Virus record (IMG/VR): IMGVR_UViG_3300044950_000361
Coordinates: 1-30,339 of that record
Direction: 5' to 3' (one strand)
Origin: a virus
Length of the DNA stretch: 30,339 nucleotides
The position numbers and the translations under genes were made by a program. The notes under the pieces were generated by a model that saw only the letters and a program-made list of their open reading frames with translations, made no database searches and was not told the origin of the DNA. This document shows, piece by piece, positions 1 to 30,236 of this stretch. Position 1 is the stretch's first letter. Every line of letters begins with the position of its first letter.

Positions 1-5
1 GCATC

Positions 6-11938: not shown

Positions 11939-13501
11939 ATGAAGAAGATCCTGCCGTACCTGATGCTGCTGATGCTCGTGGCTGTCCCGGCTCGGGCGGC
12001 CACGACGTATCGGTACAGCGACAGCGTGACCACGGTGCGCGGTGACGCTGTGGGTGGCGCGTCCGTCACGGTCTACAACGCCAACACGACGACCAAGGCG
12101 ACCCTGTACTCGTCGAGCGCGACCGGCACCAAGGCCAACCCTGCGACCACGGACGGATACGGCAGGTTCTCCTTCTATCTGCTCCCCGGCACCTACGACT
12201 TCGTTGTCAGCGGGACGAACGTCACGTCGTACACCATCGAGGACGTGCGGGTATTCTCGGACACCGGGTACACCTACAACGTGATGGACTACGGAGTAAC
12301 CGGGGCTGGCGCGGCCAATGACAGTACGGGCATAAATGCGGCGATTGATGCAGCCGAGGCGTCGGTCTACGGCGGGCGCGTATATTTCCCGCCCGGCATC
12401 TACCTCGCGTCTGGAATCAAGGTTCGCGGGAACGACATCTGCATCGACATCGACAAGGGCGCAACCATCGTTTCTGCGTCAACGAACCGCGCTGCATTTC
12501 TGGTGGACGACTCTGAAGGGTTCTCGATGACCGGCGGCGGCACCATCTCTGGCCCGGTGACGCTCACATCTTCGTGCAACGCCGTCCTGGTGGATTCGTG
12601 CTACGGGGCCAGGTTCGATGACATCAATATCGTTGGGTTCCGCAACGGAATCCGGGCCACCAGCGCCACCACGCACACCGCCTACTCGGGCCTGTCGTTC
12701 GTCAGTACGGCATTCTGCGCCCTGTGGCCCCACAGCGGAGACATCGTGACGGGGTGCCGCTTCGAGGACATCGGGACTCTCAGCACGCACCACGGCATCT
12801 ACATGGACGAGGAAACCAGCGATGTCGTCCTGTCTGGGAACTACTACAAGAACATCACCGGGGCTGGCGTGCAGATTTACAGCCCGTCGGCGGGATTCTC
12901 GGACATCTCCTGCACCGGAGAGGTCTTTGATCGGTGCGGGGTCGGCTACATCATCGCCGGAACGCCTGCGGTCAGGATCAACATCTCCGGGGCGGTGATC
13001 GACAGTTGCCGCAATCTGGCGGCGAACGAGACGCAGACTGGCGTTGGCATCAACATCACGGGTACGGCCAAAAACCTGAACATCAGCGCCACTATCTCGT
13101 ACCCAGACAGCCTGCTGCTGAACACGAACACGTCGCTGTCCGACAGCAAGTTCAACATCGCTGGCGTTGGGGCCGTAGTGGATGGCATCAGGATGTACGG
13201 CAGCGACTGCATCGGCACGTTCTCGGTGGACGACTGCGGGGCCATAGGGTTCTACCTTGGATCGTCAAGCAGCCGCAACAACTTCACGATTAAGACGCGC
13301 GGCAACGCCAGCAACGGGATCTACGTCTCAGGTGCCGACAGGAATATGTTGAGCGTCATCACGTCACTCAACAACATCGGCATCGGCCTTACGTCTGGCG
13401 CCGACTCAAACGTCGTTTCTGGGATGTCTGGAGCCAACACCGGCAACGAGCTTGACAACGCCGGAACCGGCAACACGACCTCTGGCCTTGTCACCTGGTA
13501 G
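11939..13501 (+). CDS. Beta-helix tailspike-like protein with N-terminal signal peptide
   Basis: This is a 520-residue protein. Residues 1-20 form a textbook Sec signal peptide: MKK, a Leu/Met-rich core, and a cleavage site at A-R-A before ATTYRY. A short Ig-like or prealbumin-like beta domain follows (about 25-100, with DGYGRFSFYLLPGTYDFVVSG). Then comes the pectate-lyase-superfamily entry motif (VMDYGVTGAG, NDSTGINAAIDAA, GGRVYFPPGIYLASG, about 112-160) and a long Asn/Gly/Ser/Thr-rich right-handed parallel beta-helix running to the end. Such proteins bind and often cleave capsular or O-antigen polysaccharide. The signal peptide is odd for a cytoplasmically assembled phage protein. Two TAG codons in tandem end the gene. 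Confidence 0.8.
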   Translation: MKKILPYLMLLMLVAVPARAATTYRYSDSVTTVRGDAVGGASVTVYNANTTTKATLYSSSATGTKANPATTDGYGRFSFYLLPGTYDFVVSGTNVTSYTIEDVRVFSDTGYTYNVMDYGVTGAGAANDSTGINAAIDAAEASVYGGRVYFPPGIYLASGIKVRGNDICIDIDKGATIVSASTNRAAFLVDDSEGFSMTGGGTISGPVTLTSSCNAVLVDSCYGARFDDINIVGFRNGIRATSATTHTAYSGLSFVSTAFCALWPHSGDIVTGCRFEDIGTLSTHHGIYMDEETSDVVLSGNYYKNITGAGVQIYSPSAGFSDISCTGEVFDRCGVGYIIAGTPAVRINISGAVIDSCRNLAANETQTGVGINITGTAKNLNISATISYPDSLLLNTNTSLSDSKFNIAGVGAVVDGIRMYGSDCIGTFSVDDCGAIGFYLGSSSSRNNFTIKTRGNASNGIYVSGADRNMLSVITSLNNIGIGLTSGADSNVVSGMSGANTGNELDNAGTGNTTSGLVTW

Positions 13502-13513
13502 TAGGAGGCTGAG

Positions 13514-14266
13514 ATGGTAGTCGTCGGAACATCAGGCATCGCCCGCACCTTCGTGCAGGCCGTGGATCGCGTCATCCGCGACATCGGGGAGTCGGGTGTC
13601 GAAACCCTGACCACGCCGTCGAACCGCGTTTCCACGGCCATGCGGGCCGTCGAGGACGCCCGCGACGAGGTGTACTACAAGACGATGTGGAAGTTCAGGC
13701 GCGGCCTGTTCAACATCGACCTCGCGGCCTCGACGATGTGGTACGAGTTGCCGAGCGACTTTCACAAGCTGGCGACGTTCATCTCGCGCAACACCGTCGA
13801 TGACAAGATCTGGTTCAAGACCTACGACGACATCATGCTGGAGTACCCGAACCTGCGGATGTTCCCGCCGGGTACGGGCGTGCAGACGCTTGCCAGCTTG
13901 GCGCAGGCGGCCGGCCAGACCAACACCATCGGAACGCCCGCGTACTGCACGGACTACATGGGCTACCTCGGGCTGATGCCGATGCCTGACGCTGCGTTCG
14001 CGAAGCTTGAGGGCTATCTGTACTCCCACTACTGGAAGCACGCTCCGGCGCTGGTGAGCGCCCAAGACGACATCGGGCTGCCGCGCGAGTTGTGGTCGGC
14101 GCACCATCACCTCGCCCTGTCGAGGATGAAGAAGGCTGTCGAGTACAGCGACTGGGAGGCCGACCGGGCTGTCGGCCAGCGCGAGTTGTTCATGGCGTCA
14201 TCGTCCCAGGGCGACCCGATGGACGGCAACGTAAACCACAACGGCGGCATCAACTACAACGAGTAG
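13514..14266 (+). CDS. Tail tubular protein A-like / head-to-tail adaptor
   Basis: This 250-residue protein starts after a strong GTAGGAGG site. The alpha-helical N-terminal part (about 1-55) is followed by MWYELPSDFHKLATFIS, then a mixed region with YCTDYMGYLGLMPMPDA and YLYSHYWKHAPAL. A C-terminal helical bundle follows (LWSAHHHLALSRMKKAVEY). This 'lpsDf ... YY ... P ... h' layout is what I expect of gp11-type adaptors of short-tailed phages, which bridge portal and nozzle. The following gene looks like the partner nozzle protein. The call is by pattern and context. Confidence 0.72.
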   Translation: MVVVGTSGIARTFVQAVDRVIRDIGESGVETLTTPSNRVSTAMRAVEDARDEVYYKTMWKFRRGLFNIDLAASTMWYELPSDFHKLATFISRNTVDDKIWFKTYDDIMLEYPNLRMFPPGTGVQTLASLAQAAGQTNTIGTPAYCTDYMGYLGLMPMPDAAFAKLEGYLYSHYWKHAPALVSAQDDIGLPRELWSAHHHLALSRMKKAVEYSDWEADRAVGQRELFMASSSQGDPMDGNVNHNGGINYNE

Positions 14267-14272
14267 GTGATC

Positions 14273-15973
14273 ATGGGCTACGAGGAACGTCCACAGCAGA
14301 CCCCAATGAGCCAGTTCGGCGGGCTGAATGTCGTGGACAACGAACTTGGCCTGCCCGACGACGACAGCCCTTTGCTGCTAAACGTGGACCTGCACCCGGC
14401 TGGTTCGCTGAAAAAGCGGCTCGGGTGTGCGGCGCTGACGCCGCCTACGGGCGAGAAGAAGATCGAAGCGGTCATGCCTCTGGTCCAGCCGGACGCTGGT
14501 ACGGCGTGGGTCTACTGCATTGCCGGCGGGAAGATCTACCGGACGGCTGACCCAGCAACGTGGGCATGGAGTGCGTGTACCTCAACGCCCGCCTACACGC
14601 TCCCGACGCAGACAACGTGGGGCCGGGAGAACTCCCGGTATCTGGATGGGTCCACGGAGCGCCAGTCGGTGCTGTACCTGCCCCGGTCGAACGGGGCGCC
14701 GCTGATCGCCACCGGAGGCGCATCGGCCACAAACGACATCGTGGCGCTGACGGCGGCGGCCTACGGCGTAACGCCGGCATACGGCTACCCCATCGACGAC
14801 GGCGTGTACTTCAAGGGCTGGAAAAGCGGGTCGAATGGGGCGCCTAACCATTGGCCGACGCATATGCGCCTGATCGGCCTGGGGCGTGGCTCGAGGATGT
14901 TCGCGTGGGGATTCGCTGACGACAAGGGCCGCATCGACTACTCGGAAATGGACGTGCCGTACCATTTCATGCGAAACAATATGGCGACAGCCGGGTCCAA
15001 TCCGCAGCCCCTCATAGACGGCGGCTGGTTCTACCCGCGCCCCGGTGACGGTGACGAGGTGACGGCCGTTGTGGATATGTTCTCCTACATGGTCGTGTTC
15101 AAGAAGCACCGGACGCTGATATACTCTGGCGAAGTTGGGAGCGATGGCGATTTCACGGTAGCGGCGGACTTCCCTGTTGGGTGCGTCTCCGACAGGGCGT
15201 GGGCCAAAGTCGGCAACGACCTGCTCTTTTGGAGCTACGACGGCATCCGCGCCCTGTCGGCGGTGCAGGAGTACGGCGATCTGGCGCAGGCCGACCTGTC
15301 GTTCAAGATCGCCTCACTGGTCCGTGCGGTGGTCCCCGGAGGCCACGAGCGCATCTGCTGCTACCACGATGTCTCCAATGCGCGGGTGGTGTGGTTCTGC
15401 CCTCTGTCCGGCAACACGAAGAACGACGCGGCGTTCGTCTACTACTACAACGCGAAGAAGTGGTCCAAGTGGAACGGCGATATGTGCGAGGTCATAGACG
15501 TGACCGTGCTGAAGCCGAACGCGGAGCTTCCCGAGCGCATCGTGGCCGGGACATATGACGCCGGGCTGGTTCAGGTCCAGTCTGGGTACGCCGACATCGC
15601 CGCCGACGTGGTTTCGTCCTACACGACAAACTGGCTGAACTTCGGGCCGATCTCGGACAACGAGCGCGCCATGTGGCTTGACGTGTTCTTCGGTGACGGC
15701 GGCACGGACGTTGACATATACTTCCAGACGGACCTGAATGACACCTGGACGCAGATCACGCGCACCACCAAGTCGTTCGGCGGCAGCGGCACCGTATGGG
15801 GCAAGTTCATCTGGGGCACCGCCGTCTGGGGCGTCCCCGGTCGGGCTCACAGGCGCTACGAACTGGACGCGCTGTTCGGGATGATCAGGTTCAAATTCAC
15901 TAAGACCGGGACCGCGGGATTTGAGATCATGGGCTACCGGCCCGAGATCCGGCTGAAGGGACCGCGAGCATGA
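14273..15973 (+). CDS. Tail tubular protein B-like / tail nozzle protein
   Basis: This is a 566-residue protein from ATG 14273; GTG 14267, two codons earlier and directly after the previous stop, is an alternative. The N-terminus has the FGGLNVVDNE motif common in phage tail nozzle and stabilisation proteins. A beta-rich, probably propeller-like, middle follows with repeating strand units (GGKIYRTADPATW; GSRMFAWGFADDKGRIDYSE; SYMVVFKKHRTLIYSGEV; DLLFWSYDGIRALSAVQEYG). It lies between the adaptor and a GNAT gene, and overlaps the latter by ATGA. It probably forms the distal tail tube through which DNA leaves. Confidence 0.75.
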   Translation: MGYEERPQQTPMSQFGGLNVVDNELGLPDDDSPLLLNVDLHPAGSLKKRLGCAALTPPTGEKKIEAVMPLVQPDAGTAWVYCIAGGKIYRTADPATWAWSACTSTPAYTLPTQTTWGRENSRYLDGSTERQSVLYLPRSNGAPLIATGGASATNDIVALTAAAYGVTPAYGYPIDDGVYFKGWKSGSNGAPNHWPTHMRLIGLGRGSRMFAWGFADDKGRIDYSEMDVPYHFMRNNMATAGSNPQPLIDGGWFYPRPGDGDEVTAVVDMFSYMVVFKKHRTLIYSGEVGSDGDFTVAADFPVGCVSDRAWAKVGNDLLFWSYDGIRALSAVQEYGDLAQADLSFKIASLVRAVVPGGHERICCYHDVSNARVVWFCPLSGNTKNDAAFVYYYNAKKWSKWNGDMCEVIDVTVLKPNAELPERIVAGTYDAGLVQVQSGYADIAADVVSSYTTNWLNFGPISDNERAMWLDVFFGDGGTDVDIYFQTDLNDTWTQITRTTKSFGGSGTVWGKFIWGTAVWGVPGRAHRRYELDALFGMIRFKFTKTGTAGFEIMGYRPEIRLKGPRA

Positions 15974-16494
15974 CGGCAACGTGGACGATCCGCAGGGTCG
16001 ATCAGGCGACGGCAACGCCGGAGTACCTGTTCGACCTCATCAAGAAGCACCGGATGCTGCCGGACAACGTGGACGTGGCGGTGGCCTACTGCCGCAACGC
16101 CGCGGCGTCCTGCCTCGTTCTGGAGATCCTGAACGAGAACCACGAGAAGGTGGCCGACGCCATCATCTCGGAGATCATCGACGGCGACTCGGCCACGCTG
16201 GACCTGATGGTCGTGTCGAAGTTCTACGCCCGGTTCAACGCCGACAAGAGCGAGAACGAGGTGCCGTTCAACGACCTTACGCGGGATGCGCTTCGCCCGG
16301 CTCTGGTCCGGCTGGTCGAGGCGCGCGGGTTGCGCCGGATCACGGCGGCCATCCCGCGCTCAAGGAATCGGACGTTCAACGCGCTCATCGAGTGCGGGTT
16401 CAGCAGGGAGGGCGTCATGCGCCGCGCGGTGAAGCTGCGCGGCAAAGACCCCGAGGATCTGGTCATCATGGGCTTCCTGCCCGACAAGGAGTAG
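15970..16494 (+). CDS. GNAT-family N-acetyltransferase
   Basis: This 174-residue protein has the GCN5-related acetyltransferase layout. A central beta strand pair (ATLDLMVVSKFYARF) leads to the acetyl-CoA-binding helix (ALRPALVRLVEARGLRRITAAI). Next come the usual Asn-rich segment (PRSRNRTFNALIECGFSREGVMRRA) and a last strand (DLVIMGFLP). It starts in an ATGA overlap with the nozzle gene and is followed within four bases by an ejection-type protein, so it is co-expressed with virion genes. The target is unknown. It could modify a virion protein or a host component; the sequence does not say which. Confidence 0.8.
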   Translation: MTATWTIRRVDQATATPEYLFDLIKKHRMLPDNVDVAVAYCRNAAASCLVLEILNENHEKVADAIISEIIDGDSATLDLMVVSKFYARFNADKSENEVPFNDLTRDALRPALVRLVEARGLRRITAAIPRSRNRTFNALIECGFSREGVMRRAVKLRGKDPEDLVIMGFLPDKE

Positions 16495-16497
16495 GTC

Positions 16498-17265
16498 ATG
16501 TCGTTTCTCGGTGGACTGATCAAGGGCGCTGTCGGGCTCGCTACGGGCGGGGTCGGGAGCGCGGTCCTGGGTCTGGCCGGCGACCTGCTCGGTGGGGCTG
16601 GCGGCGGCCAGAGCCAGACGGCATCGCAGTCTGGGTCCAGCACATCCACGCAGGAAACCCAGTTGCGCGACTTTTCGGCCAAGGAACAGTCGCTATACAA
16701 CCAGGCTGCGGCCGGGCTCGCCGCGTCCGGTCAGCCGATGACGCCCGCGGCCGAGGCAGCGATCCGCAAGCGGATCTACGACGCGAACTTCCTGCCTCAG
16801 AAGCAGGCGATTGAGAATGGGCTGGCTACGGCCGGAGCTAACCGATACTCGCAAGCGGCGAGACGTGGCGCCGGGCAGTCTAGCGCGACCGTAGCCGGCT
16901 CTGCTACCGACAGCGCGGTGGCAGCGCGTGAGGTTGGGCTGGCGTCCCAGAACGCCACGATCTCTGCGGAGAATCAGGTGCTGGCGCAGCAGCAGGCTCA
17001 GTTGCAGGCGTCCCAGAGCTACGTCCAGACGATGAACGCCCTGTGGGACCAGCGGACGAAGGGGTCGAAGATCGTCACGACCAACTCGTCGAACGCCAGC
17101 AGTTCGCAGCAGTCTCCCGGCGGCGGGCTTCTGGGCGGCATCGGCTACGCGCTCGGCAACAAGGACTCGTGGCTGAACAAGAACGTGCTGAAGAAGCAGC
17201 CGACATGGGGCAGCGACGTTAAGGACGAAACGAGGGCTGCCGGCGCTGGAGGTACGACATGGTAG
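16498..17265 (+). CDS. Internal virion / DNA-ejection protein candidate
   Basis: This 255-residue protein has a Gly/Ala/Leu-rich hydrophobic N-terminus (about 1-37, GGLIKGAVGLATGGVGSAVLG). A long Gln/Ala/Ser-rich helical region follows with few acidic residues. A Ser/Asn/Gly-rich tail carries a second hydrophobic glycine patch (GGGLLGGIGYALG). This glycine-zipper plus Gln/Ala helix layout is typical of podovirus ejection proteins that form the trans-envelope channel. The ribosome binding site AAGGAG lies six bases before the ATG. The stop overlaps the next ATG. Confidence 0.7.
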   Translation: MSFLGGLIKGAVGLATGGVGSAVLGLAGDLLGGAGGGQSQTASQSGSSTSTQETQLRDFSAKEQSLYNQAAAGLAASGQPMTPAAEAAIRKRIYDANFLPQKQAIENGLATAGANRYSQAARRGAGQSSATVAGSATDSAVAAREVGLASQNATISAENQVLAQQQAQLQASQSYVQTMNALWDQRTKGSKIVTTNSSNASSSQQSPGGGLLGGIGYALGNKDSWLNKNVLKKQPTWGSDVKDETRAAGAGGTTW

Positions 17266-18695
17266 ACTTTCTCAACAGCCTTGCCGGCGGCTACGCCCAG
17301 GGTCAGGCGCAGTTCAAGGCGAACGAGGCCGTGCGAAAAGAGGCGGCCGAGAAGGCCGCCAAGGCGGCGCAGGACGCGGCCGAGTTCCGGCTGAAGCTCG
17401 CGCAGCACAGCCAGACGCTGACCAACTCGGCGGAAACCGAGTACAACGCCATCATGGACGAAATCACGGCCGACGATTGGGATCCGGCCAAGATCCCGGC
17501 GCTCATGCCGCGCGTGGCAAACTTCGACAAGACCTACGGCGCGGTGTGGGGCGGGGGCAGCGCGGCCGAGATGGTCAAGAAGGCGCTGCACCTGGACCCG
17601 ACGAGCAAGCCCACCACCAAGCTGAAGCCGGGAACGTATGGCCCTGCCGATCAGCCTCGCTACGACGACCCGCTCATGGGATTCACGTCCGAGGCCCAGA
17701 AGGGCGCGGCTGACGACAAGGCGCGTAAGGCGCGCACCAAGCAGAAGGCCACCGAGTTCGCCGTGGGCGCGGCTGAGTACGCCCGCAATCCGAATGGCGG
17801 GATGCCCGACGAGGCGACGTTCTACCGCAAGGTCTACGAGTACCAGGATATGCTGAACCGCACCGATCCCGAGCGGTACGACCTGGAAACCATCAACGAA
17901 GCCATGAAAACGATCCGCGAGGCGGCGGCTGGCTACTTCAAGGGGCTCGCGTCGAACATGGACCTGCTCGCCAAGCAGTCCACGATGACGGATGCGATCA
18001 GCGAGCGGACCGACAAGGTGATCAGGAACATCTCGTCGTGGGTCAACCAACTGCTGATGTTCGACGCCAACGGCGCCTCCCTGACGGGCGACCTGTTCGC
18101 GGAGCGCACGCCGCTGCGTCTGGAGATGGAGAGGGAGGCAGCCGAGCTTGCCATGCAGGGTATGTCCGAGGGTCAGATCAGGTCCAACCTCATCTTCAAG
18201 CACCGCGAAAAGATGGGCGGCCTTGAGTTGGACATCAAGCAAAGCCCCTACTCGGGGTCGCTGACGCTCATGGGCGCCGACCCAGGATTCCAGTCTGCGG
18301 TCAACCGCTTCTACGACCTGAACGAAGATCCGAACGAGGACCAGATCATCCCGATGTGGCGCTCGTCCGACAACACCGGATGGGTTGTCAACCTGCTCAC
18401 CGGGGAGGGCCGGGAGATCTACCGGCCGACCACGCCGAGGCCGCCGGAAGCCGGGGCTGGTCCGTGGAAGAATACCGGCGGGCAGACGCAGGCGCCGCCG
18501 AAGGGCAAGGACGCGCCGAAGGCAAGCAAGACGATGACGCCGGAGGAAAAGGCCGCATACGAGCGCAGGCAGCGCGAGGCGAAGGACATCGAGAAGGCGG
18601 CCAAGGCCACGGTTGGTTTCGTCCCTGACGCCATCAGGGCCATGTTCCCGCCGGGTGCGTTTTCCGAGAACCCATTTGGGGAGAAGAAGAAATGA
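17259..18695 (+). CDS. Internal virion protein candidate
   Basis: This 478-residue protein begins VDFLNSLAGGYAQGQAQF, followed by an Ala/Lys/Glu-rich coiled-coil-like stretch (about 22-60). The middle is charged and helical, and the Pro/Lys-rich tail ends with FGEKKK. There is no signal peptide and no catalytic motif. The position between a glycine-rich ejection candidate and the 2604-residue polyvalent protein, with overlaps on both sides (ATGGTAG at the start, ATGA at the end), points to a three-gene set of proteins packaged in the capsid and ejected with DNA. The family is not recognised. Confidence 0.65.
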   Translation: MVDFLNSLAGGYAQGQAQFKANEAVRKEAAEKAAKAAQDAAEFRLKLAQHSQTLTNSAETEYNAIMDEITADDWDPAKIPALMPRVANFDKTYGAVWGGGSAAEMVKKALHLDPTSKPTTKLKPGTYGPADQPRYDDPLMGFTSEAQKGAADDKARKARTKQKATEFAVGAAEYARNPNGGMPDEATFYRKVYEYQDMLNRTDPERYDLETINEAMKTIREAAAGYFKGLASNMDLLAKQSTMTDAISERTDKVIRNISSWVNQLLMFDANGASLTGDLFAERTPLRLEMEREAAELAMQGMSEGQIRSNLIFKHREKMGGLELDIKQSPYSGSLTLMGADPGFQSAVNRFYDLNEDPNEDQIIPMWRSSDNTGWVVNLLTGEGREIYRPTTPRPPEAGAGPWKNTGGQTQAPPKGKDAPKASKTMTPEEKAAYERRQREAKDIEKAAKATVGFVPDAIRAMFPPGAFSENPFGEKKK

Positions 18696-21600
18696 GCCCG
18701 ATGGCCCCCGACGATCTCCTGCTCCAAGCCGGCATCCTCACGCCCGGTTCCAAGGTGGCGTCAGGCATGGCGTCGGCGGCACCGCAGATGCAGCAGCCGG
18801 CGCAGGCCAGTGGTGGGTGGGCTCCGGCACCGCCGGACCTGCTCCAGCGGGCGCAGGTTGGCCGGTTCATGGTCGGCGGCCCCGACTCGCGCATGGCCAT
18901 GTTCCCCGACGAGTTCCCCGAGGCGAAGGCTGACAAGCCGAACGTGGTGATGCGCGGCGTTCGCGGGATCGCGGCGGGCATCGCTGACATGGCCCCCTCG
19001 ACGATGGCGCTGGCGGCGAGCGTGATCGACTTCATGGGCGCCGACGAGGCGGGGGCGCAGTTGGGTCAGGCGTCCCTGGACGTGTCCTCGTGGCTGAACG
19101 ACCACCTCGCGGTGGAGAACCCGAACCTGTACGACCACGCGATGCGTGGCGTCGGGTCGATGCTGACGCTCATCCTGCCGGGCATCGGGGCGGCTTCGGT
19201 GGGTGGGAAGATCGCGATGGCGGCCGGCATGGTCGAAAAGACGGCGCAGGGGGCGACCGTTCTGAGCAAGGTCGGCCAAGCCTTCCGCGCCCTGACCGGC
19301 GGCGGCGCCATGTCGTTCCTCGAGTCCGCCGTCGAGCAGTCGCAGCGGGAGATGGAACTGATCGGGCAGGGCAAGACCCCCGAGCAGGCCATGAAGGAAT
19401 CGGCCCCGATCTTCTGGCACAACATGGGCGTCCTAATGGCGACCAACACGGTGTCCTATTTCCTGCCGCTGCCCATCAAGGTGAAGAACGAGTTCGTGCG
19501 CCGGGCGGCCAAGGCCGTCGAGGCGGCGTTCACCGAGGGCGGGCAGGAGCGCGCGCAGGCGGTCATTCAGGACGTAGCCTCCGGTCGCGGCGAGTGGGGC
19601 GACTTCCTCGACCCGAACAAGAACGTCACGGACACCCTGGTCGGGGCTCTGGTCGGCGGCGGCACGGCCGCCCTGCTGCCTGGAGAACCGGACGCCCCCC
19701 AGAACGTCCCAGTCGCCCCCCTGTCGAACGCTCCGGTCCAGCCGTCGCAGCCTTCGGCCACACCCCCGACCCCGCAGCAGGCGCCAGCGCAGGCCGCTCA
19801 GCCTGCCAAGCCGGCACCCCCCTCGGCGGCGCCTGCTGCTCCCATCCCCGTCCCGTCCGATCTGCCGATGCAGCCGGTCGAGGGGTTCGATGTCTGGACG
19901 GGGCAGCAGGAGGACGAGGACGCCGCGCCCCTCGCGCAGACCCCGGCGCAGCAGGAGACGCCCGCCCCGGTCGAGGCGGCACCGCCCGCCCCCGCGCGCG
20001 AGATCGTCAACCACTTCATCAACGAGTCGGATGGTACGGTTTCCGAGGTCATCGGTGAGCCCGACGGCACCTTCTCGGTGGACACCACCGACAGCGAATC
20101 GGGCAACCGGATCGAGCTTCGCAAGCGGTTCCCGACGCAGGACGCCGCCGAGGTCCACGCCAAGCTGATGACCGGGCAGCAGGAACAGGAGGCGGCACCG
20201 CAGGACGCCCCCATCCAGAACGATGTCCAGTTGACCAGCAGGAACCGCCTCGCCACCCCCATCAAGGGCAAGACGGGCGCGTCCATCGTCGGCTACCAGT
20301 GGATGTCCACGACCGAGGAAGGGATGTTCCGCGACCGCAAGGTTAGCGATTGGACCCGTTCGCAGAAAAGCGAGCCGACCGGGCGCGACATCGTTCACGT
20401 CTTTTTCGTCCAGACCGAGGACGGCAGCGTCAAGGTGATGGGCGTTGGCGCCGCGCAGAAGGCGCTTGGGATTAGCACGGACCGCCTGTACTCGATTGCC
20501 AAGTCCGAGCAGCAGATGGCTCGGCAGCGCATCGAGAACCGCGACAAGGAAGAAGCCCGCATTCTGGAGAAGGTCGCGAGCGAGTCCCCCGTCGAGGCCG
20601 CCCGCAAGTGGCGCACGTCAAACGGGGCCAAGGGCGACATCACCAAGACGGTCCTGATGACCAAGGGCGGCAAGTTCTTCAGGACGGCCGACGCGAACCT
20701 TCAGGAGTCGTTGTCTGAGCGCGGGTGGTCGGTTGCCGAGGGCGACCCCGTTGACGAGCTTCGCGAACAGGAGGCGGCTGCATCGCCCGCAGCCGAACCC
20801 ATTCCCGCGCCCGCCCCCGCCGACATCGCCCCGCAGGCGGCCGCGCAGGAATCCGCACCCCCTCCCGCCGCCGTCGCGGAGACTGCGGGGGCACCGGCAG
20901 CGGCGGCCGGTATCGTGTCCATGCCGACATCGGCGCTCACCGTCTCCAAGCCGGGCGAGTTCCAGACACGCGAGAACATCGACAACGAGGAGACGCAGAC
21001 CAACGAGGCCAAGATGACGGCCATCATGGCCGACTTCAAGCCTGATCGCCTGACGCCCATCGTGGCGTGGCGCGACCCTGTTGACGGGAAACTGAAGATC
21101 CTCGACGGCCACCACACGCTTGAAGCCGCGAAGCGCGCCGGTATCCCGAACGTCAACGTCCGCGAGTTCGTGGGAACCCGCGAGGAAGCCAAGACCGAGG
21201 CTGATATCCTGAACGACCTGCGGACGGTCAATGACCCCCTGTCGCGTGCGGCCACCGTCAGGCGCCTACGGGAATCTGGAATGTCCGAGGCTGAGATCGA
21301 GGCCACGTCCCGCCCGCGCTACCAGGAGGGCACGCCGACCGTCCTTCAGTTGTCGTTCCTGAACCCGAACGGGCAGGTCGTCGCGTCCATCAAGCAACTC
21401 ATGGGCTCCGATCAGGACTCGGACTCGACGAGCGACCTGATGAAGATGGCGAAGTGGATCGGTGAGGCCCGCCGCCGAAACACGAACCTGACCGACGCCC
21501 ACGAGCAGGAGATGTTCGACGCGCTGCGCGCTAACTTCGGCAAGACGCCGTGGGCAAAGAACGCGCAGGCGTTCACCAAGCACGTTCGCGGGCTCGCCAC

Positions 21601-24600
21601 CGCAGGGGGCTTCGACGCCAGCAGCCGCTTGAATCTCGGGCTGGACAAGCGCACGCCGGCCGAGAAGAAGTTCGATACAGAGGTTGCCGCAGCGGAGGCC
21701 GCCGTTGCCGAAGCCGAGGCCACACTGAAAGAGAAATCGGCGCAGCTTGCCGCAGCCGGCATCGACGTGAACGTCAAGGACAAGATCCTCAAGCCGTTCC
21801 GCGAGGCTGTCGATATCGCCGAGGCCGATCTAGCCGTCCTGAACGGCAGTCGCGAGCGGTATCTGGAGGCCGAGCGCAATCAGGGCGGCCTGTTCCGCCT
21901 CTCCAGCCCCAGTATCTCCAAGCTGAATGCCGCCGCGTCCAAGCGCGGCCTGACGCCCGCCGAGATGGCAAAGCCCCGCGACCTGATGGACGAGATGGTC
22001 GTGCGCGTGGCGAAGATGTTCGGCTTCAAGAACGTGCAGTTCGTGACCGGCCTCGCGGCTCCGAATGGGCAGATGGCGCACGGCTACTACCAGCAGGAAT
22101 CCGACACCGTGTTCCTGAACGCCGGGTCGTCCGAGCCGATGCTGACCGTGCTGATGCACGAGGTCGGGCACCGCATGGAGGTCGAACACCCGGACCTGTA
22201 CGGGCAACTGATCCAGATCCTGAACGACCCCGCCAACGTCCGCACGGGAGCCAAGGAGATCTACGGCAAGGACGCCAAGGCCCGAGGCTACACCGAGGCG
22301 GGCGTCGAGCGCGAGTGGGTCAGCGACGGTCTGATGGAGGCGTCCAGCCGCCCCGAGTTCTGGAACGTCCTGCAAGAGAAGAACCCGACGCTGGCCGGCA
22401 AGCTCGTCAACATGATCGTGGACGCCATCAAGGCGATCCGCAAGATGTTCGCGGCGTCCGGCGCCAGCGTGGACGTGTACTACAACAACTTCGGCCCGCT
22501 GGTCCGGCAGATCGCCAACGTCGCGGCGCAGATGCAGGCGAGGGAGGCGGAACTGGCGCGGTCTGAAAAGACGGCCAAGGACGCCATCAAGAAGCAGCCG
22601 TCGATGTTCCGCGTGGCCCCGGCGCTCCGCAAGATCGCCACCTGGTTCAGCGGCACCGGAACACTCGAGGCGGTCCTGTCGAACGCGAAGGGCGTCCACG
22701 CCGTCGAGTACAGCCCCGAGATCATCGCGCAGCACAACAAGGCATACGGGACCAGCTACACGGCGCGTGACGTGACCGAGATCGACCCGCTGGAGGTGGC
22801 GGGCACGGGCGCCGATCACTTCCACGCCAGCCCGGTCTGCAAGAACTTCAGCAAGGCCAAGCGCAACCGCGGGTCCAGCAACCTCGACATCGCCAGCGCG
22901 CGGGCCGTAGTCGGCGTGATCCTCAAGGCCGGGATGCCGTCGATCACCATCGAGAACGTGACCGACTACATCGGCACCGAGCCGTACAAGATGATCGTCG
23001 AGGCGCTGAAGAAGGCCGGCTACACGCAGCGCACCGTCAAGGTGAACGCCGCCGACTACGGCGGGGCGCAGAACCGGACGCGGATGGTCATCCAGGCAGT
23101 CAAGGACGGCAACCTGCCGCCGCTGCCGGACAAGACCGGGCCGACCGACTGGTTCGCGGCCATCGAGGATCTGCTGGCGGATGCGCCGAAGTCCACCGTG
23201 GCAGAGGAGCGCGTCAAGGGACGCGGTTGGAACTGGGAGCCTGATCGCATCGCTAAGATGGTCGAGCGGGGAGAACTGGACGCCGACCTGCCCATCATCG
23301 CGATGGGCGGCAGCACCGACAAGGTGCGCGCATGGGCGGCCAACTCGGGCGGCCCTGCGCCGACCCTGAAGGCCACCAAGGGCGAAACCGTCCGCATCAT
23401 CATGCCGGATGGCACGGTCTACAAGGCGACCCCGAGGATGCTGGCCCGCCTGATGGGGATGCCGGACTCGTTCCAGATCCCCGAGAACTACGGCTTCGCC
23501 AAGAAGGTTCTCGGCAACGGCATCCACGGCGCGATCACCAAGGCGTTCATCGAGCCCCTGGTCAACGGCGAGCGCGGCACCTCGCCCGTGTCCGAGGACA
23601 CCGCCGGCCAGATCGAGATGTTCCGAATCGCCCCCATCGCCAACCCGGTCGCCAACGAGATGCGCGACAAGCAGGACGTGGCGATGAAGGCCAACAACCA
23701 GCACCGGCATCAGGGCTGGAGGGCTGGCTGGCGGCACGTCTACATGAACATGGTGGACAAGCACACGTTCACCTACCGGATGGTCCGCGACATCGTGAAG
23801 GCGGCGAACCCGAAACTGGCGAAGGACTTCTCCCTTGCCAAGAGCCCGTACATCGCCCTGCGCCGGTTCGGGTCGTGGATGACGGCGGTTGAGGTGGCGC
23901 TGAAATACGGCGTCTACTCGTTCGACGGCCAGACCGTGCTGGCCCCAGGCATGGAGCAGATCATCAAGAAGCACGGGCTGTCCGACGCCATCGACAGCCG
24001 AGAGTTCGGGCTGTTCTACACGGCGGCAACGCTCGTCTCGCGCAAGTACTCGCTGGACAGTCGCGGCAAGGATTTCTTCGGTGACGACCCGACAACGGAC
24101 GAGTACCAGGCCGCCGAGGACGAGTTCCTGAAGTGGCAGAAGATCTACGACGACTACAAGAAGGCGCACCCCACATGGGAGGCCGCCGTCGATGACTTCA
24201 CGGCCTATGCCTACGCCCTGATCCAGCGGTCCTACGAGGCGGGCGTGATCAACGAGCGCGAGTTCAAAGACTTGACCAAGACGTACAGCGTCTACGCCCC
24301 GCTGTTCGTGATCGAAAGCAGCCGGTACGACGTGGACCGTGGCGACCCGGTTGCCGCCGGGAGTGTCGCGCACGAGATGACGCGGTTCGACCCGACGGCT
24401 GTCCGCATGGACCCCATCGACGCGCTCATCAAGCAGACGTACCACATGGAGTTCTTCACGCGCCGCAACACGGCGGCGCAGCAGCACGCCAACTTCATCA
24501 AGAAGTACCGCGACAAGTCCAAGAAGGGCGTCACCGTCCTCGAGGGCTTCGGCATGAGGGTCCGGCCAAAGGAAGATCCCGTTGCCAAGCGCGTGCAGCA

Positions 24601-26506
24601 GCTTCTGGAGGCGGCCGGGCTGTCAGAGGCTGAGATCGCGGCGCTCGGCAGGACGCCCGAGCAGCTTGAGCGCGAGGCGAAACTGTACGTCACGTCGCGG
24701 ATGCAGCCGGACGGCGTGATCGCCCTGCTGCGCGACGGCGAGGTGGAGTACTGGCAGCTTGACCCGGACATCTACGAGTCGTTCATGGCGGCAACCGGCC
24801 CGAAGGCCATGCACCCGATGATGAAGTTCTTCTCGGCGCAGACGAGCCTGCTGCGGGCTGGCGCCGTGCTGACGCCCGACTTCATGGCGAGGAACCAATT
24901 CAGGGACTTCGCCTCGTCGGCCATCATCTCGCAGCACCTGATCCGCAATCCCATCGACCCGTTCCTGGTGCCGGTGAAGATCCTGCGTGGACTGTCGGCG
25001 GCCATCAATCAGACCGAGGCGTTCAAGGAGTTCATGCTGGAGGTTGGGCACTCCCAATTGCACGCACAGGACCAGAATGGGCTGCGGAAATCGAGCGAGC
25101 AGTTGACCAGGGACTCCCGCGGGCGGTTCAAGTACGTCCTCCACAGCAGCCCGATCACCATCTTGCAGGAGTTCGGCAAGCTGACGGAAAACTCGACGCG
25201 CTACGCCGTGTACTGGAAAACCAAGACCGACCTGCTCAAGATGGGCTGGAGCGAATCCGAGGCCCGCGTCAAGGCCGCGATGGAGGCCCGCGAGTCGTCC
25301 ATCGACTTCGCCCGCTCGGGCAAGTACGGGCAGGTCATCAACCAGATCATCCCGTTCTTCAACGCGGCGGTGCAGGGCAACGACAAGGCGCTCCGCACGT
25401 TTGTCGTGGACAGCGGCGGGCGCGGCTCGGCGTGGCTCAAGGCGACCATGCTGATCACGGTCCCGTCCGTCCTGCTGTGGGCGCTGAACCACGACGATGA
25501 ATGGTACAAGGATCAGCCCATCTGGCTGAAGAACAACTTCTGGCTGTTCTCGGTGGACGGCGGCAAGACCATCCACAAGCTCCCGAAGCCGTTTGAGCTT
25601 GGCCTCATGTACGCCTCGCTGGCCGAGCGGTTCCTCGACTGGCGCGTGGACAAAGACCCGAAGGCGATGAAGGAGTGGTCCGAGGCCGTCCTGAAGAACG
25701 TCGTCGCAGTCAACGACAAGAACCCCATCGCGTCGGTGGGCGGTCTGCTCGGGCCGATGGCCGGCACCATGACCGAGATCGTGTCCAACTACGACTCGTT
25801 CCGCGGCACGCCCATCGTCAAGGGCTGGCTCGAGGAGGTCGTGCCGCGCGAGCAGTACAACGCCAACACGTCCGAGTTCGCGAAGGCGATGGGCGGCATG
25901 GCCCCCGGTGGCGGGATCAGCCCGATGATGATCGACCACTTCATCCGCGGCACGTTCGGTGGGCTTGGTGCCTACGGCGCCCAAGTGGCGTCCGAGATCA
26001 TCATGCTGGCGAGGCCCGAGTTGAAGGCCATGAAGCCGTCGCCCAAGCAGATCCACACGCTCGTCGGCGCCGACGTGCCAGATTGGATTCCGGTGATCAG
26101 GGCGTTCGCGTCCTCCACGCCGTCGGGCTACACCCGGCAGATGAACGACTTCTTTGAGATCTACGACCGCGGGCGCGAGGCGTCCAAGACGATTCAGGCG
26201 TTCAAGGCGTCGGGCGCTCCGGTGGAGAAGTTCAAGGCAGAGTACCGCAGGTCGGGCGCTGAGATCGCCACCTTCAAGGCGTCCCAGGAGGTCGCGGAGA
26301 AGTTGGGCCAGATCTCCAAGCGCGCGCGGTTCATCGAGTCGCTGCCGTCCACCGAGATGACGCGGGACGAGAAGCGCAAGCAGATCGACCAGCTTACGGA
26401 AACGCGCAACCTGATGGTAAAGAAGTTCCTCGAGCGGTACTATGCAATCGACCAGCGCGACCTTCAGCGCCAGATCGACGAAAGCCTCAAGCAGATAGGG
26501 AGGTAG
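18692..26506 (+). CDS. Giant polyvalent virion protein: ParB-like, zincin, C5-MTase and LPD38-like regions
   Basis: This 2604-residue protein is probably packaged and injected with the DNA. Residues 1-330 hold hydrophobic/glycine helices (LTLILPGIGAASVGGKIAMA). About 330-435 is a Pro/Ala/Gln-rich linker. A ParB-like nuclease fold lies at about 740-850 (ILDGHHTLEAAKRAG, DGHH at 805-808). A Gln/Ala/Glu coiled-coil follows at about 1010-1065. A zincin metallopeptidase lies at about 1075-1270 (HEVGH at 1156-1160, with a later EREWVSDGLMEA segment as third-ligand candidate). A DNA C5-cytosine methyltransferase spans about 1315-1625: motif I FSGTGTLEA 1319-1327, catalytic Cys1383 in SPVCKNFS, ENV 1421-1423, QNRTR 1460-1464, RLMGMPDSF, and GNG 1608-1610. 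About 2040-2330 resembles LPD38 (IIPFFNAAVQGND, WALNHDDEWY, KLPKPFELG). The last 100 residues are coiled coil. This matches the 'polyvalent protein' class of phages and conjugative elements, thought to counter host defences on entry. LFRLSS, MFRVAP and MFRIAP mark the domain junctions. The ATG overlaps the previous stop. Confidence 0.88.
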   Translation: MSPMAPDDLLLQAGILTPGSKVASGMASAAPQMQQPAQASGGWAPAPPDLLQRAQVGRFMVGGPDSRMAMFPDEFPEAKADKPNVVMRGVRGIAAGIADMAPSTMALAASVIDFMGADEAGAQLGQASLDVSSWLNDHLAVENPNLYDHAMRGVGSMLTLILPGIGAASVGGKIAMAAGMVEKTAQGATVLSKVGQAFRALTGGGAMSFLESAVEQSQREMELIGQGKTPEQAMKESAPIFWHNMGVLMATNTVSYFLPLPIKVKNEFVRRAAKAVEAAFTEGGQERAQAVIQDVASGRGEWGDFLDPNKNVTDTLVGALVGGGTAALLPGEPDAPQNVPVAPLSNAPVQPSQPSATPPTPQQAPAQAAQPAKPAPPSAAPAAPIPVPSDLPMQPVEGFDVWTGQQEDEDAAPLAQTPAQQETPAPVEAAPPAPAREIVNHFINESDGTVSEVIGEPDGTFSVDTTDSESGNRIELRKRFPTQDAAEVHAKLMTGQQEQEAAPQDAPIQNDVQLTSRNRLATPIKGKTGASIVGYQWMSTTEEGMFRDRKVSDWTRSQKSEPTGRDIVHVFFVQTEDGSVKVMGVGAAQKALGISTDRLYSIAKSEQQMARQRIENRDKEEARILEKVASESPVEAARKWRTSNGAKGDITKTVLMTKGGKFFRTADANLQESLSERGWSVAEGDPVDELREQEAAASPAAEPIPAPAPADIAPQAAAQESAPPPAAVAETAGAPAAAAGIVSMPTSALTVSKPGEFQTRENIDNEETQTNEAKMTAIMADFKPDRLTPIVAWRDPVDGKLKILDGHHTLEAAKRAGIPNVNVREFVGTREEAKTEADILNDLRTVNDPLSRAATVRRLRESGMSEAEIEATSRPRYQEGTPTVLQLSFLNPNGQVVASIKQLMGSDQDSDSTSDLMKMAKWIGEARRRNTNLTDAHEQEMFDALRANFGKTPWAKNAQAFTKHVRGLATAGGFDASSRLNLGLDKRTPAEKKFDTEVAAAEAAVAEAEATLKEKSAQLAAAGIDVNVKDKILKPFREAVDIAEADLAVLNGSRERYLEAERNQGGLFRLSSPSISKLNAAASKRGLTPAEMAKPRDLMDEMVVRVAKMFGFKNVQFVTGLAAPNGQMAHGYYQQESDTVFLNAGSSEPMLTVLMHEVGHRMEVEHPDLYGQLIQILNDPANVRTGAKEIYGKDAKARGYTEAGVEREWVSDGLMEASSRPEFWNVLQEKNPTLAGKLVNMIVDAIKAIRKMFAASGASVDVYYNNFGPLVRQIANVAAQMQAREAELARSEKTAKDAIKKQPSMFRVAPALRKIATWFSGTGTLEAVLSNAKGVHAVEYSPEIIAQHNKAYGTSYTARDVTEIDPLEVAGTGADHFHASPVCKNFSKAKRNRGSSNLDIASARAVVGVILKAGMPSITIENVTDYIGTEPYKMIVEALKKAGYTQRTVKVNAADYGGAQNRTRMVIQAVKDGNLPPLPDKTGPTDWFAAIEDLLADAPKSTVAEERVKGRGWNWEPDRIAKMVERGELDADLPIIAMGGSTDKVRAWAANSGGPAPTLKATKGETVRIIMPDGTVYKATPRMLARLMGMPDSFQIPENYGFAKKVLGNGIHGAITKAFIEPLVNGERGTSPVSEDTAGQIEMFRIAPIANPVANEMRDKQDVAMKANNQHRHQGWRAGWRHVYMNMVDKHTFTYRMVRDIVKAANPKLAKDFSLAKSPYIALRRFGSWMTAVEVALKYGVYSFDGQTVLAPGMEQIIKKHGLSDAIDSREFGLFYTAATLVSRKYSLDSRGKDFFGDDPTTDEYQAAEDEFLKWQKIYDDYKKAHPTWEAAVDDFTAYAYALIQRSYEAGVINEREFKDLTKTYSVYAPLFVIESSRYDVDRGDPVAAGSVAHEMTRFDPTAVRMDPIDALIKQTYHMEFFTRRNTAAQQHANFIKKYRDKSKKGVTVLEGFGMRVRPKEDPVAKRVQQLLEAAGLSEAEIAALGRTPEQLEREAKLYVTSRMQPDGVIALLRDGEVEYWQLDPDIYESFMAATGPKAMHPMMKFFSAQTSLLRAGAVLTPDFMARNQFRDFASSAIISQHLIRNPIDPFLVPVKILRGLSAAINQTEAFKEFMLEVGHSQLHAQDQNGLRKSSEQLTRDSRGRFKYVLHSSPITILQEFGKLTENSTRYAVYWKTKTDLLKMGWSESEARVKAAMEARESSIDFARSGKYGQVINQIIPFFNAAVQGNDKALRTFVVDSGGRGSAWLKATMLITVPSVLLWALNHDDEWYKDQPIWLKNNFWLFSVDGGKTIHKLPKPFELGLMYASLAERFLDWRVDKDPKAMKEWSEAVLKNVVAVNDKNPIASVGGLLGPMAGTMTEIVSNYDSFRGTPIVKGWLEEVVPREQYNANTSEFAKAMGGMAPGGGISPMMIDHFIRGTFGGLGAYGAQVASEIIMLARPELKAMKPSPKQIHTLVGADVPDWIPVIRAFASSTPSGYTRQMNDFFEIYDRGREASKTIQAFKASGAPVEKFKAEYRRSGAEIATFKASQEVAEKLGQISKRARFIESLPSTEMTRDEKRKQIDQLTETRNLMVKKFLERYYAIDQRDLQRQIDESLKQIGR

Positions 26507-28834: not shown

Positions 28835-29254
28835 ATGGACAAGAGACTCAACGAACACGCCGAAGAAATGTACGCCATGTACCAGAGCGGGCGCAGCTTG
28901 GCAGAGGTCGCCCGTGCGTTCGGCAAGACCCGGCAGTCGGTGTGGGGGCTGTTCAGGTATCGCGGCTGGCCGCGCAGGCCCGTTCAGCCTCTCCCGTTCC
29001 TGACATTCAACGGCGTTCGCTACACGATGGCGAACACAGGGTACTACCGCCGCACGGACGGGAGCCGCAGCCTGATGCACCGCGATGTCTGGGAGTTCTA
29101 CAACGGCCCGATCCAAAAGGGATGGGACATTCACCACATCGACGAGGACCGCACCAACAACGCCATCGAGAACCTTGAGTGCCTGCCGAAAGCGGAACAC
29201 ACCCGCAAGTATTCTCCGCACAACAACCAGTACACGCGAGGAAGGAAGAAGTGA
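28835..29254 (+). CDS. HNH endonuclease with N-terminal HTH
   Basis: This is a 139-residue protein after the strong site AAGGAGGAG. Residues about 18-45 (GRSLAEVARAFGKTRQSVWGLF) form a resolvase/Hin-like HTH. The C-terminal half has the HNH_3-type motif: LMHRDVWEFYNGPIQKGWDIHHIDEDRTNN with HH at 100-101, N108-109, then IENLECLPKAEH with H122 as the last ligand. Proteins of this kind are free-standing phage homing endonucleases or nicking enzymes. It has its own promoter and operator-like palindrome and sits directly upstream of the interrupted methyltransferase. The TGA stop overlaps a GTG at 29251 that opens a different frame from the methyltransferase. Confidence 0.88.
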   Translation: MDKRLNEHAEEMYAMYQSGRSLAEVARAFGKTRQSVWGLFRYRGWPRRPVQPLPFLTFNGVRYTMANTGYYRRTDGSRSLMHRDVWEFYNGPIQKGWDIHHIDEDRTNNAIENLECLPKAEHTRKYSPHNNQYTRGRKK

Positions 29255-30216
29255 CCTGGGTATGTATTCCTTGCACCTGTTCGCAGGAGCCGGCGGGGGA
29301 ATCCTTGCCGACGCCCTCATCGGCCACACCCCCATCGCGGCGTGTGAAATCGACCCGTATGCTCGACGGGTTCTACTTCAACGGCAGATTGACGGAGTTC
29401 TACCGGTGTTTCCCATTTGGGACGACATCAGGACCATGCGGGCCGACAACCCAGAGTGCGCCGAAGCATTCGCAACCTGGAAGGAGGTCCGAAGGGAACT
29501 CGTCATTTGTGGCGGGTTCCCGTAGCTTTGCACAGACATCAGTTCAGCCGGCAAGGGCGCCGGCATCGACGGCGAAGCCAGCGGCCTCTGGTCCGAAATG
29601 GCACGCATTATCGGTGAGGTACGACCTCGCTACGTCTTCGTGGAAAACAGCCCGCTGCTTGTTTCCAGAGGACTTGCCCGAGTCCTCGGTGACCTTGCCA
29701 CGCTGGGGTATGATGCGCGGTGGGGAATTGTGGGAGCGGACGACGTCGGGGCCCCGCACAGGCGCAAGCGCATCTGGATTGTGGCCGACGCCGCGGGCGG
29801 GGAACCCAGGCAGCAGACCGAACGGGGCTGGCGGGAAGATCTTGTCAGAGGAAGTGCTGATCTCGGAGGGGCTTCGTCAGCGTGGTCAACAGACGTGGCC
29901 AACCCCGAAAGCCAGCGCAGCCGGCCCGGACTTCGCCAAGATGGACAGGTCGGCAACGGGGATCAGTTTGCAGACGGCGGTGGCGATGTTCCCGACGCCC
30001 AAGAGCCGGGACGGCAAGGGGCAGTCGCAGCGGGGGATTCATGCCCAGGGGGATGCGCTGCCGAACATGGACCGGGGCGATGGGGCTGTGATTGGTGGCT
30101 CACTGAACCCAACGTGGGTCGAGTGGCTCATGGGGTGGCCTCTCGGGTGGACCGACTTAAGTGCATCGGGAACGGACAAGTTCCAGCAGTGGCTGCAATC
30201 GCATGGCGCCTGCTAA
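29251..30216 (+). CDS. Overlapping frame with methyltransferase-associated 'WPTP ... WVEWLMGWP' signatures
   Basis: A frame +1 to the Dcm-like gene stays open across the whole region. From about 29585 it reads like a protein seen in phage methylase loci: RYDLATSSWKTA, then LPRWGMMRGGELWE, repeated WPTP/FPTP units (LWPTPRA, TWPTPKA, MFPTPKS), and the end motif LNPTWVEWLMGWPLGWTDL. That last motif resembles motif IX of C5-methyltransferases. GTG 29251 is a reasonable start: it forms a GTGA overlap with the HNH stop and has GGAAGGAAG just upstream. A start at ATG 29179, inside the HNH gene, is also open. The N-terminal third looks unlike a folded protein. It may be a genuine overlapping gene, a frame-decayed remnant, or chance; family recognition is from memory of similar sequences. 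Confidence 0.45.
   Translation: MTWVCIPCTCSQEPAGESLPTPSSATPPSRRVKSTRMLDGFYFNGRLTEFYRCFPFGTTSGPCGPTTQSAPKHSQPGRRSEGNSSFVAGSRSFAQTSVQPARAPASTAKPAASGPKWHALSVRYDLATSSWKTARCLFPEDLPESSVTLPRWGMMRGGELWERTTSGPRTGASASGLWPTPRAGNPGSRPNGAGGKILSEEVLISEGLRQRGQQTWPTPKASAAGPDFAKMDRSATGISLQTAVAMFPTPKSRDGKGQSQRGIHAQGDALPNMDRGDGAVIGGSLNPTWVEWLMGWPLGWTDLSASGTDKFQQWLQSHGAC
29262..29525 (+). CDS. N-terminal fragment of Dcm-like methyltransferase
   Basis: This 87-residue product ends at the amber codon. It contains the SAM-binding motif I (FAGAGGG), the following acidic strand (ACEIDPYARRVLL), IWDDIRT, and stops at ICGGFP, one step before the catalytic Cys. Alone it cannot methylate. The ATG is weakly served by GGAAG sequences about ten bases upstream. 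Confidence 0.55.
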   Translation: MYSLHLFAGAGGGILADALIGHTPIAACEIDPYARRVLLQRQIDGVLPVFPIWDDIRTMRADNPECAEAFATWKEVRRELVICGGFP

Positions 30217-30236
30217 CCGAGGAGGACGGACGATGA
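29598..30236 (+). CDS. C-terminal fragment of Dcm-like methyltransferase
   Basis: This 212-residue reading from ATG 29598 is in the same frame as the N-terminal fragment. It carries motif VI (VFVENSP), the segment LARVLGDLATLGYDARWGIVGADDVGAPHRRKRIWIVADA, a variable region with VAD/VAN/VPDA units, and motif X (RVDRLKCIGNGQVPAVAAIAWRLL). The catalytic Cys codon at 29529 lies upstream of this start. There is no good ribosome binding site before 29598, so it may not be translated independently. The stop overlaps the next ATG. Confidence 0.45.
   Translation: MARIIGEVRPRYVFVENSPLLVSRGLARVLGDLATLGYDARWGIVGADDVGAPHRRKRIWIVADAAGGEPRQQTERGWREDLVRGSADLGGASSAWSTDVANPESQRSRPGLRQDGQVGNGDQFADGGGDVPDAQEPGRQGAVAAGDSCPGGCAAEHGPGRWGCDWWLTEPNVGRVAHGVASRVDRLKCIGNGQVPAVAAIAWRLLTEEDGR

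Follow-up and report, generated by a model that had tools for sequence, protein, structure and literature searches.

The window analysed here, a linear virus record of 30.3 kb (30,339 nucleotides) made up of one metagenomic contig and probably a fragment of a virus genome, encodes a giant polyvalent protein in the gene position of T7 gp16, with an intact-looking C5-cytosine DNA methyltransferase embedded in its middle. By analogy with the virion-borne methylases of other phages, we give a probability of about 0.6 to the reading that this protein would be injected and that its methyltransferase would methylate the entering DNA against restriction.

Gene neighbourhood of the giant protein

The giant gene (18692..26506, plus strand) runs from an ATG start to a TAG stop and encodes 2604 aa; the ORF call confirmed the single 2604-residue frame noted in an earlier reading of these letters (hereafter the sequence-only reading). 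It lies among virion structural genes, and those preceding it on the same strand are conserved in a second virus record, IMGVR_UViG_3300009506_000114 (hereafter L002). An SU10-type head-tail adaptor (13514..14266; PF24175, E=4.9e-9), syntenic in L002, is followed by a tail protein, probably the nozzle (14267..15973; phrog_21185 'tail protein', E=2e-7; phrog_5107 'amidase', E=3e-19), whose homologue in L002 (E=8.5e-151) keeps the same place. Three genes come next: a small conserved one (15970..16494; L002 homologue, E=6e-40) without a match in the Pfam search, which by position shares the slot of the acetyltransferase gene of relatives; a conserved gene (16498..17265) with homologues in L002 and in a further record, L058, whose slot carries the label 'internal virion protein (B)' in related phages; and, immediately upstream of the giant gene, a conserved gene in a gp15-like position (17259..18695; L002 homologue, E=1.9e-20). 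The order adaptor, nozzle, three genes and giant gene is common to the window and L002, and comparable orders, with neighbours annotated as internal virion proteins, occur in Pelagibacter phage Lederberg and podovirus ct8d5349. Being the largest gene and standing after the nozzle and three smaller internal-protein genes, the giant gene occupies a T7-like gp16 slot, and the ejection-protein position that had been proposed for it is borne out by gene order and by the synteny with L002. The match to T7 gp16 is one of gene slot; no structural link was found (the C-terminal model has no PDB match with E<=0.001).

A 1612-aa frame at 3-4844 (plus strand), open at the 5' end of the contig, may encode a tail fibre or adhesion protein; its sole family match, which stays far below the cut-off, pairs aa 1095-1387 with a C-terminal portion of exoglucanase CbhB (NF041611, E=3e-15). 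Positions 11939-13501 (plus strand), flanked by the genes for capsid and adaptor, encode a 520-aa protein with pectate-lyase-like and tail-spike matches.

Domain layout of the giant protein

The chain begins with a conserved, Gly/Ala-rich region (aa 1-330; 18692..19681, plus strand, as for all domains of this protein) that has moderately hydrophobic segments at aa 93-112 and 153-178 in the hydropathy profile and a phmmer match to L002 only (E=2.5e-71), followed by a low-complexity Ala/Pro-rich linker (aa 330-735). A ParB-like domain with a helical extension then occupies aa 738-985 (20903..21646). It matches phrog_1033 (ParB-like) over aa 737-869 (E=3.5e-12), has DGHH at aa 805-808 and follows a strand and helix order, in the AlphaFold (AF2) model, that agrees with this assignment; the TIGR00180 match is weak, and a PDB sequence search with the region gave nothing significant. 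The same region is 31% identical over 280 aa to gp43 of Salisaeta icosahedral phage 1 (SSIP-1), a 2319-aa protein annotated as structural, which differs in having an NPPF-type (N6) methylase and in which no counterpart of HEVGH, C5-methyltransferase or LPD38 was seen. SSIP-1 is a tailless membrane-containing phage. On these sequence comparisons a domain of the ParB/Srx superfamily is well supported, and the ParB-like call first made from DGHH stands on the phrog_1033 match and the SSIP-1 gp43 homologue.

A coiled linker separates this domain from a zincin-like metallopeptidase domain (aa 1085-1290; 21944..22561) with HEVGH at aa 1156-1160 (nt 22157-22171) and a predicted third ligand, Glu1208. 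In an alignment of four divergent copies (window, L002 and two in the giant protein of another record, L069) only nine columns are invariant, and these include H1156, E1157, H1160, Glu1208 and Asp1212; a profile built from the window and L002 retrieves both L069 copies at E=2e-18. The AF2 model of aa 735-1645 gives a helix, three strands, the HEXXH helix (414-431 in model numbering) and the Glu helix holding E1208 (468-484), with pLDDT of about 80 over a stretch covered by two sequences only. The predicted order of helices and strands fits a zincin and, given those two covering sequences and a PDB sequence search of the region without significant match, we call the zincin probable, an assignment based on the conservation of residues across the divergent copies. 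The best Pfam match, DUF6782 'putative metallopeptidase', falls below cut-off (E=8e-4), and the best 50 Foldseek matches listed for the same model are methyltransferases only. The zincin proposed at HEVGH is made probable by HEXXH and Glu1208, invariant in the four copies, and is the weakest part of the domain scheme. The further idea that it cuts host factors found no support; for polyvalent proteins as a class, Iyer et al. (2017; PMC5512222) propose polyprotein processing, and by this analogy the domain would more probably process its own polypeptide than cleave host proteins.

Past the methyltransferase, the protein ends in an all-helical module (aa 2013-2586; 24728..26449; AF2 pTM 0.74) that holds the LPD38 core (aa 2269-2453; 25496-26050; PF18857, E=1.2e-34, 120.5 bits against a cut-off of 27). 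An LPD38-like region had been recognised from the letters with limits, 2040-2330, that are slightly off, the core at 2269-2453 lying within the conserved 2013-2586. Relatives of this module occur at no fewer than 595 IMG/VR loci. The matches of its model in BFVD (Foldseek) are other LPD38 giant proteins, and in the PDB none reaches E<=0.001 (best E=0.06); with no solved relative found for the module, it is gene position and homology, not structure, that support the ejection role.

By the criteria tested, namely at least two domains of disparate activity in one chain and a place among virion structural genes, both found here, the giant protein is a phage-type polyvalent protein, the class to which it had been assigned beforehand.

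The C5-cytosine methyltransferase domain

The methyltransferase spans aa 1314-1629 (22631..23578), with its catalytic Cys1383 at nt 22838-22840. PF00145 matches aa 1318-1620 (E=2.2e-19, 70.5 bits against a cut-off of 22), the DNA-methyltransferase PHROG phrog_116 matches aa 1280-1612 (E=1e-29), and TIGR00675 (dcm, NCBIfam) gives E=8e-16, below its cut-off. Motifs I, IV (catalytic Cys), VI (ENV), VIII (QxRxR, here QNRTR), IX and X are all present and in order, together with GNG, so that the full motif order described in the sequence-only reading holds by PF00145, by motif check and by conservation across the clade. In the AF2 model pLDDT is mostly >90 across the domain, and the fold asked of structure prediction was found: the top Foldseek matches are M.HhaI structures (E=3.6e-12, target TM 0.69). 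Fold, motif order and catalytic residues are those of M.HhaI and stand-alone PF00145 enzymes, from which the window domain differs in being embedded in a giant protein, in belonging to a separate clade and in its PVC(K)NF motif IV.

This last feature, Cys1383 lying in SPVCKNF with PVC where the canonical motif is PPC, is what speaks for a structural or DNA-binding relic without catalysis. We consider such a relic very improbable: over 30 aligned methyltransferases conservation is >=90% for the Cys, for ENV, for the arginines of motif VIII and for the Asn of motif X, GNG is conserved as well, PVC is the standard at motif IV across the clade, and GC3 is unbroken. The GC3 of the C5 segment (0.93) equals that of its flanks; by this measure the segment neither came in recently from a foreign source nor was misjoined. 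That the domain is intact-looking is solid, and activity is predicted from its sequence and model.

A removable cassette

The giant protein of L002 (9725-17626; 2633 aa) is 41% identical to that of the window and colinear with it end to end, sharing the N-terminus, ParB, HEVGH/zincin and LPD38 regions; its region corresponding to aa 330-735 is unlike the window's. It lacks exactly the methyltransferase (window aa ~1308-1640), and no PF00145 match was found anywhere in the L002 record. L002 was the only record returned when IMG/VR was scanned at protein level with the complete ORF, with the C-terminus or with the ParB-zincin region. Because a colinear ortholog lacks only that domain, the methyltransferase is, as judged from this sequence comparison, a removable cassette, and the two proteins form a natural with/without pair for testing it.

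The cassette is flanked by two near-identical hexapeptides, MFRVAP (aa 1305; 22604..22621) and MFRIAP (aa 1643; 23618..23635), and LFRLSSP at aa 1067 precedes the zincin. Together these could possibly be processing sites or the trace of an insertion, and the flanking pair may be due to chance. As processing sites common to giant proteins, [ML]F[RS] linkers are unsupported, with 54 observed against 41 +/- 6 expected.

A clade of methyltransferases within giant proteins

IMG/VR and GTDB genomes were scanned with the window C5 domain and its four closest relatives. The scan yielded 37 loci with the SPVCKNF motif, 31 of which lie in ORFs of 1438-5044 aa, a proportion that describes the SPVCKNF clade and not C5-methylases at large, the motif having been derived from giant proteins. 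In a maximum-likelihood tree the window, 31 giants and four shorter proteins form one clade of 36 rows (support 100/96), thus with 32 of the 36 members in giant ORFs, and the stand-alone C5-methylases of cultured phages fall outside it. A control scan from free-standing phage C5-methylases gave no ORF >1000 aa among 79 usable ones, and none >543 aa; the C5-methylase matches inspected in cultured phages were all stand-alone (303-673 aa), with no close cultured example. When the methyltransferase was masked, the C5 giants split into about 17 unrelated backbones. HEXXH occurs in 21 of the 32, where shuffling predicts 1.3, an enrichment that makes the zincin a frequent partner of the C5-methyltransferase. 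The N6-methylase motif NPP[FYW] was found in none of the 32 C5 giants, window protein included, and the cytosine and N6 chemistries were not seen together among them. A contig of a Prevotellamassilia timonensis genome (L040, 521-12460) encodes a 3980-aa protein of the same C5 clade with four HEXXH motifs.

Since the window record is a single metagenomic 30.3-kb contig and the sole ortholog found lacks the domain, one might suspect an assembly chimaera of two genes. We strongly disfavour this explanation to the point of barely crediting it, as methyltransferases of the same clade stand inside the giant ORFs of ~30 other contigs from many samples, and both reading frame and GC3 are continuous. 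The near confinement of this lineage to giant phage proteins suggests a little-described route for marking entering phage DNA.

Comparison with known polyvalent proteins and virion-borne methylases

Like the polyvalent proteins of phages (PMC5512222), the window protein joins several disparate domains, ParB-like and zincin-like ones included, in a virion-gene context, and its LPD38 belongs to the phage-only entries of the domain list in that paper. The methylases of polyvalent proteins described by Iyer et al. (2017; PMC5512222) are mostly N6-adenine enzymes, DarB-like, monophyletic, EcoKI/TaqI-like and joined in one chain with an SF2 helicase and LPD36; the main text of that paper describes no C5-cytosine methyltransferase, 'cytosine' appearing there only in a reference title. 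The window methylase differs from those accounts in being of C5-cytosine and not of N6-adenine type. A search of the open literature, a coverage outside which most subscription journals lie, found no C5-methylase in an injected protein, and we provisionally call the cytosine type undescribed.

P1 DarB, JC1 gp69 and Bcep22 gp75 likewise combine a giant protein with a DNA methylase, theirs being virion-borne and proposed to protect the entering DNA, and JC1 gp69 also carries LPD38 at its C-terminus (PMC9144972). Unlike that group, the window protein has C5 chemistry and fold subclass and contains ParB and zincin domains; no Pfam match to an SF2 (SWI2/SNF2) helicase or LPD36 was found in its 2604 aa. 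As it lacks the N6 motif and no helicase was found in it, the window protein, on sequence grounds, is not a member of the DarB family.

None of 85 proteins with the LPD38 C-terminal module has a C5-methyltransferase, and four of them (L043, L069, L097 and L118) contain NPP[FW], a motif that hints at an N6-methylase. Profile searches found no window-type ParB, window-type zincin or LPD38 in the other C5 giants. In the material searched, the order ParB, zincin, C5-methyltransferase and LPD38 occurs only in the window protein, and the suggestion that this exact architecture may be new has held, with no second case across the 85 LPD38 proteins and the other C5 giants.

Proposed place and time of action

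Relatives that share a single module give the strongest experimental support for a virion location. Proteomics of virions purified on CsCl assigned 51 unique peptides to Burkholderia phage JC1 gp69 (4515 aa, LPD38, DarB-like; PMC9144972), and P1 DarB is a head protein believed to enter the cell (PMC9024508). DarB protects the incoming P1 DNA in cis. It is plausible that the window protein is present in the virion, a location suggested by its homologues JC1 gp69 and SSIP-1 gp43, the homology extending to the C-terminal module alone in the first and to the ParB module alone in the second. The helical C-terminus with the LPD38 region, possibly with the Gly/Ala-rich N-terminus, would form a platform for virion assembly and delivery, and the middle of the protein would hold interchangeable effector cassettes: the ParB-like domain, the zincin-like peptidase and the C5-methyltransferase. 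The methyltransferase would enter with the genome and methylate cytosines of the incoming DNA and thereby shield it against restriction, the part that DarB, an enzyme of N6-adenine chemistry, plays in P1; the zincin may cut the polypeptide and so free the domains. By analogy, the protein is most likely a cytosine (C5) equivalent of DarB that acts on the DNA as it enters, and methylation on entry, ahead of any gene expression, is the best inference as to timing. Packaging, injection, activity, timing and protective benefit are what we infer in this scheme, which would also require the packaged enzyme to fold correctly once ejected and to have S-adenosylmethionine at hand.

The timing bears on an explanation that we regard as unlikely, namely that the methyltransferase works late in the producing cell. 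On this view the giant protein, synthesised along with the virion proteins, would methylate progeny DNA ahead of packaging or while packaging proceeds; the fusion would only position the enzyme near that DNA, and no step after injection would be required. The giant gene does sit in the late morphogenesis cluster, and a further free-standing C5-methylase, consistent with generally 5mC-modified phage DNA, is present in 17/26 records with a giant C5-methylase (L003-L039) vs 4/27 LPD38 phages without one (Fisher p=2e-4; by backbone 13/17 vs 4/27, p=8e-5), groups that differ in record length and relatedness, which makes the effect size uncertain. The small number of companions that were compared fall into different subfamilies, and companion enzymes fit action at entry as well as late action. 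Late action, however, would be served by a free-standing enzyme without any fusion; the lasting fusion on many backbones suggests selection for the virion location itself, and P1 DarB, a packaged protein, is believed to pass into the cell at infection (PMC9024508).

Another explanation, that what the domain acts on at entry is chiefly host DNA, host regulation or competing elements and that protection of phage DNA is not its main task, appears improbable to us. Injected polyvalent-protein enzymes have been proposed to act on host targets too (PMC5512222), and ParB-like and zincin domains are not necessarily directed at phage DNA; yet no feature pointing to host DNA was found, and the precedent of DarB is one of self-protection in cis.

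The window itself carries a second, free-standing C5-methyltransferase gene (29262-30236, plus strand) that is interrupted inside motif IV by an in-frame TAG immediately following GGFP. The catalytic motif is split, as the translation runs GGFP-stop-Leu-Cys, and a relative 60% identical to its product, in record L145, is intact (GGFPCQDIS). Its GC3 is 0.63, vs 0.76-0.94 in the other genes checked. Because TAG is the usual stop in the window, this gene looks broken; recoding was ruled out, TAG being the main stop of the window's genes and no tRNA having been found. Directly upstream (28835-29254, plus strand) lies an HNH_3 endonuclease with a resolvase-type HTH (E=5e-17), and a link between the break and a homing-type element is possible.

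Methylation of entering DNA as a possible entry strategy

Beyond the window, we hold it to be an even chance that the SPVCKNF clade forms a class, not described before, of cytosine methyltransferases carried in virions, in short a 'cytosine DarB': a movable cassette in many unrelated giant ejection proteins that would fill the role held elsewhere by N6-methylases, often in the company of a second, free-standing C5-methylase, which would maintain the mark during replication. Virion-delivered DNA methylation has so far meant mainly P1 DarB and its N6-adenine relatives. If the proposal is true, a cytosine version on many unrelated backbones would mean that the marking of DNA at the time of entry arose with different chemistries, and this version would leave a 5mC footprint, readable by bisulfite or nanopore methods.
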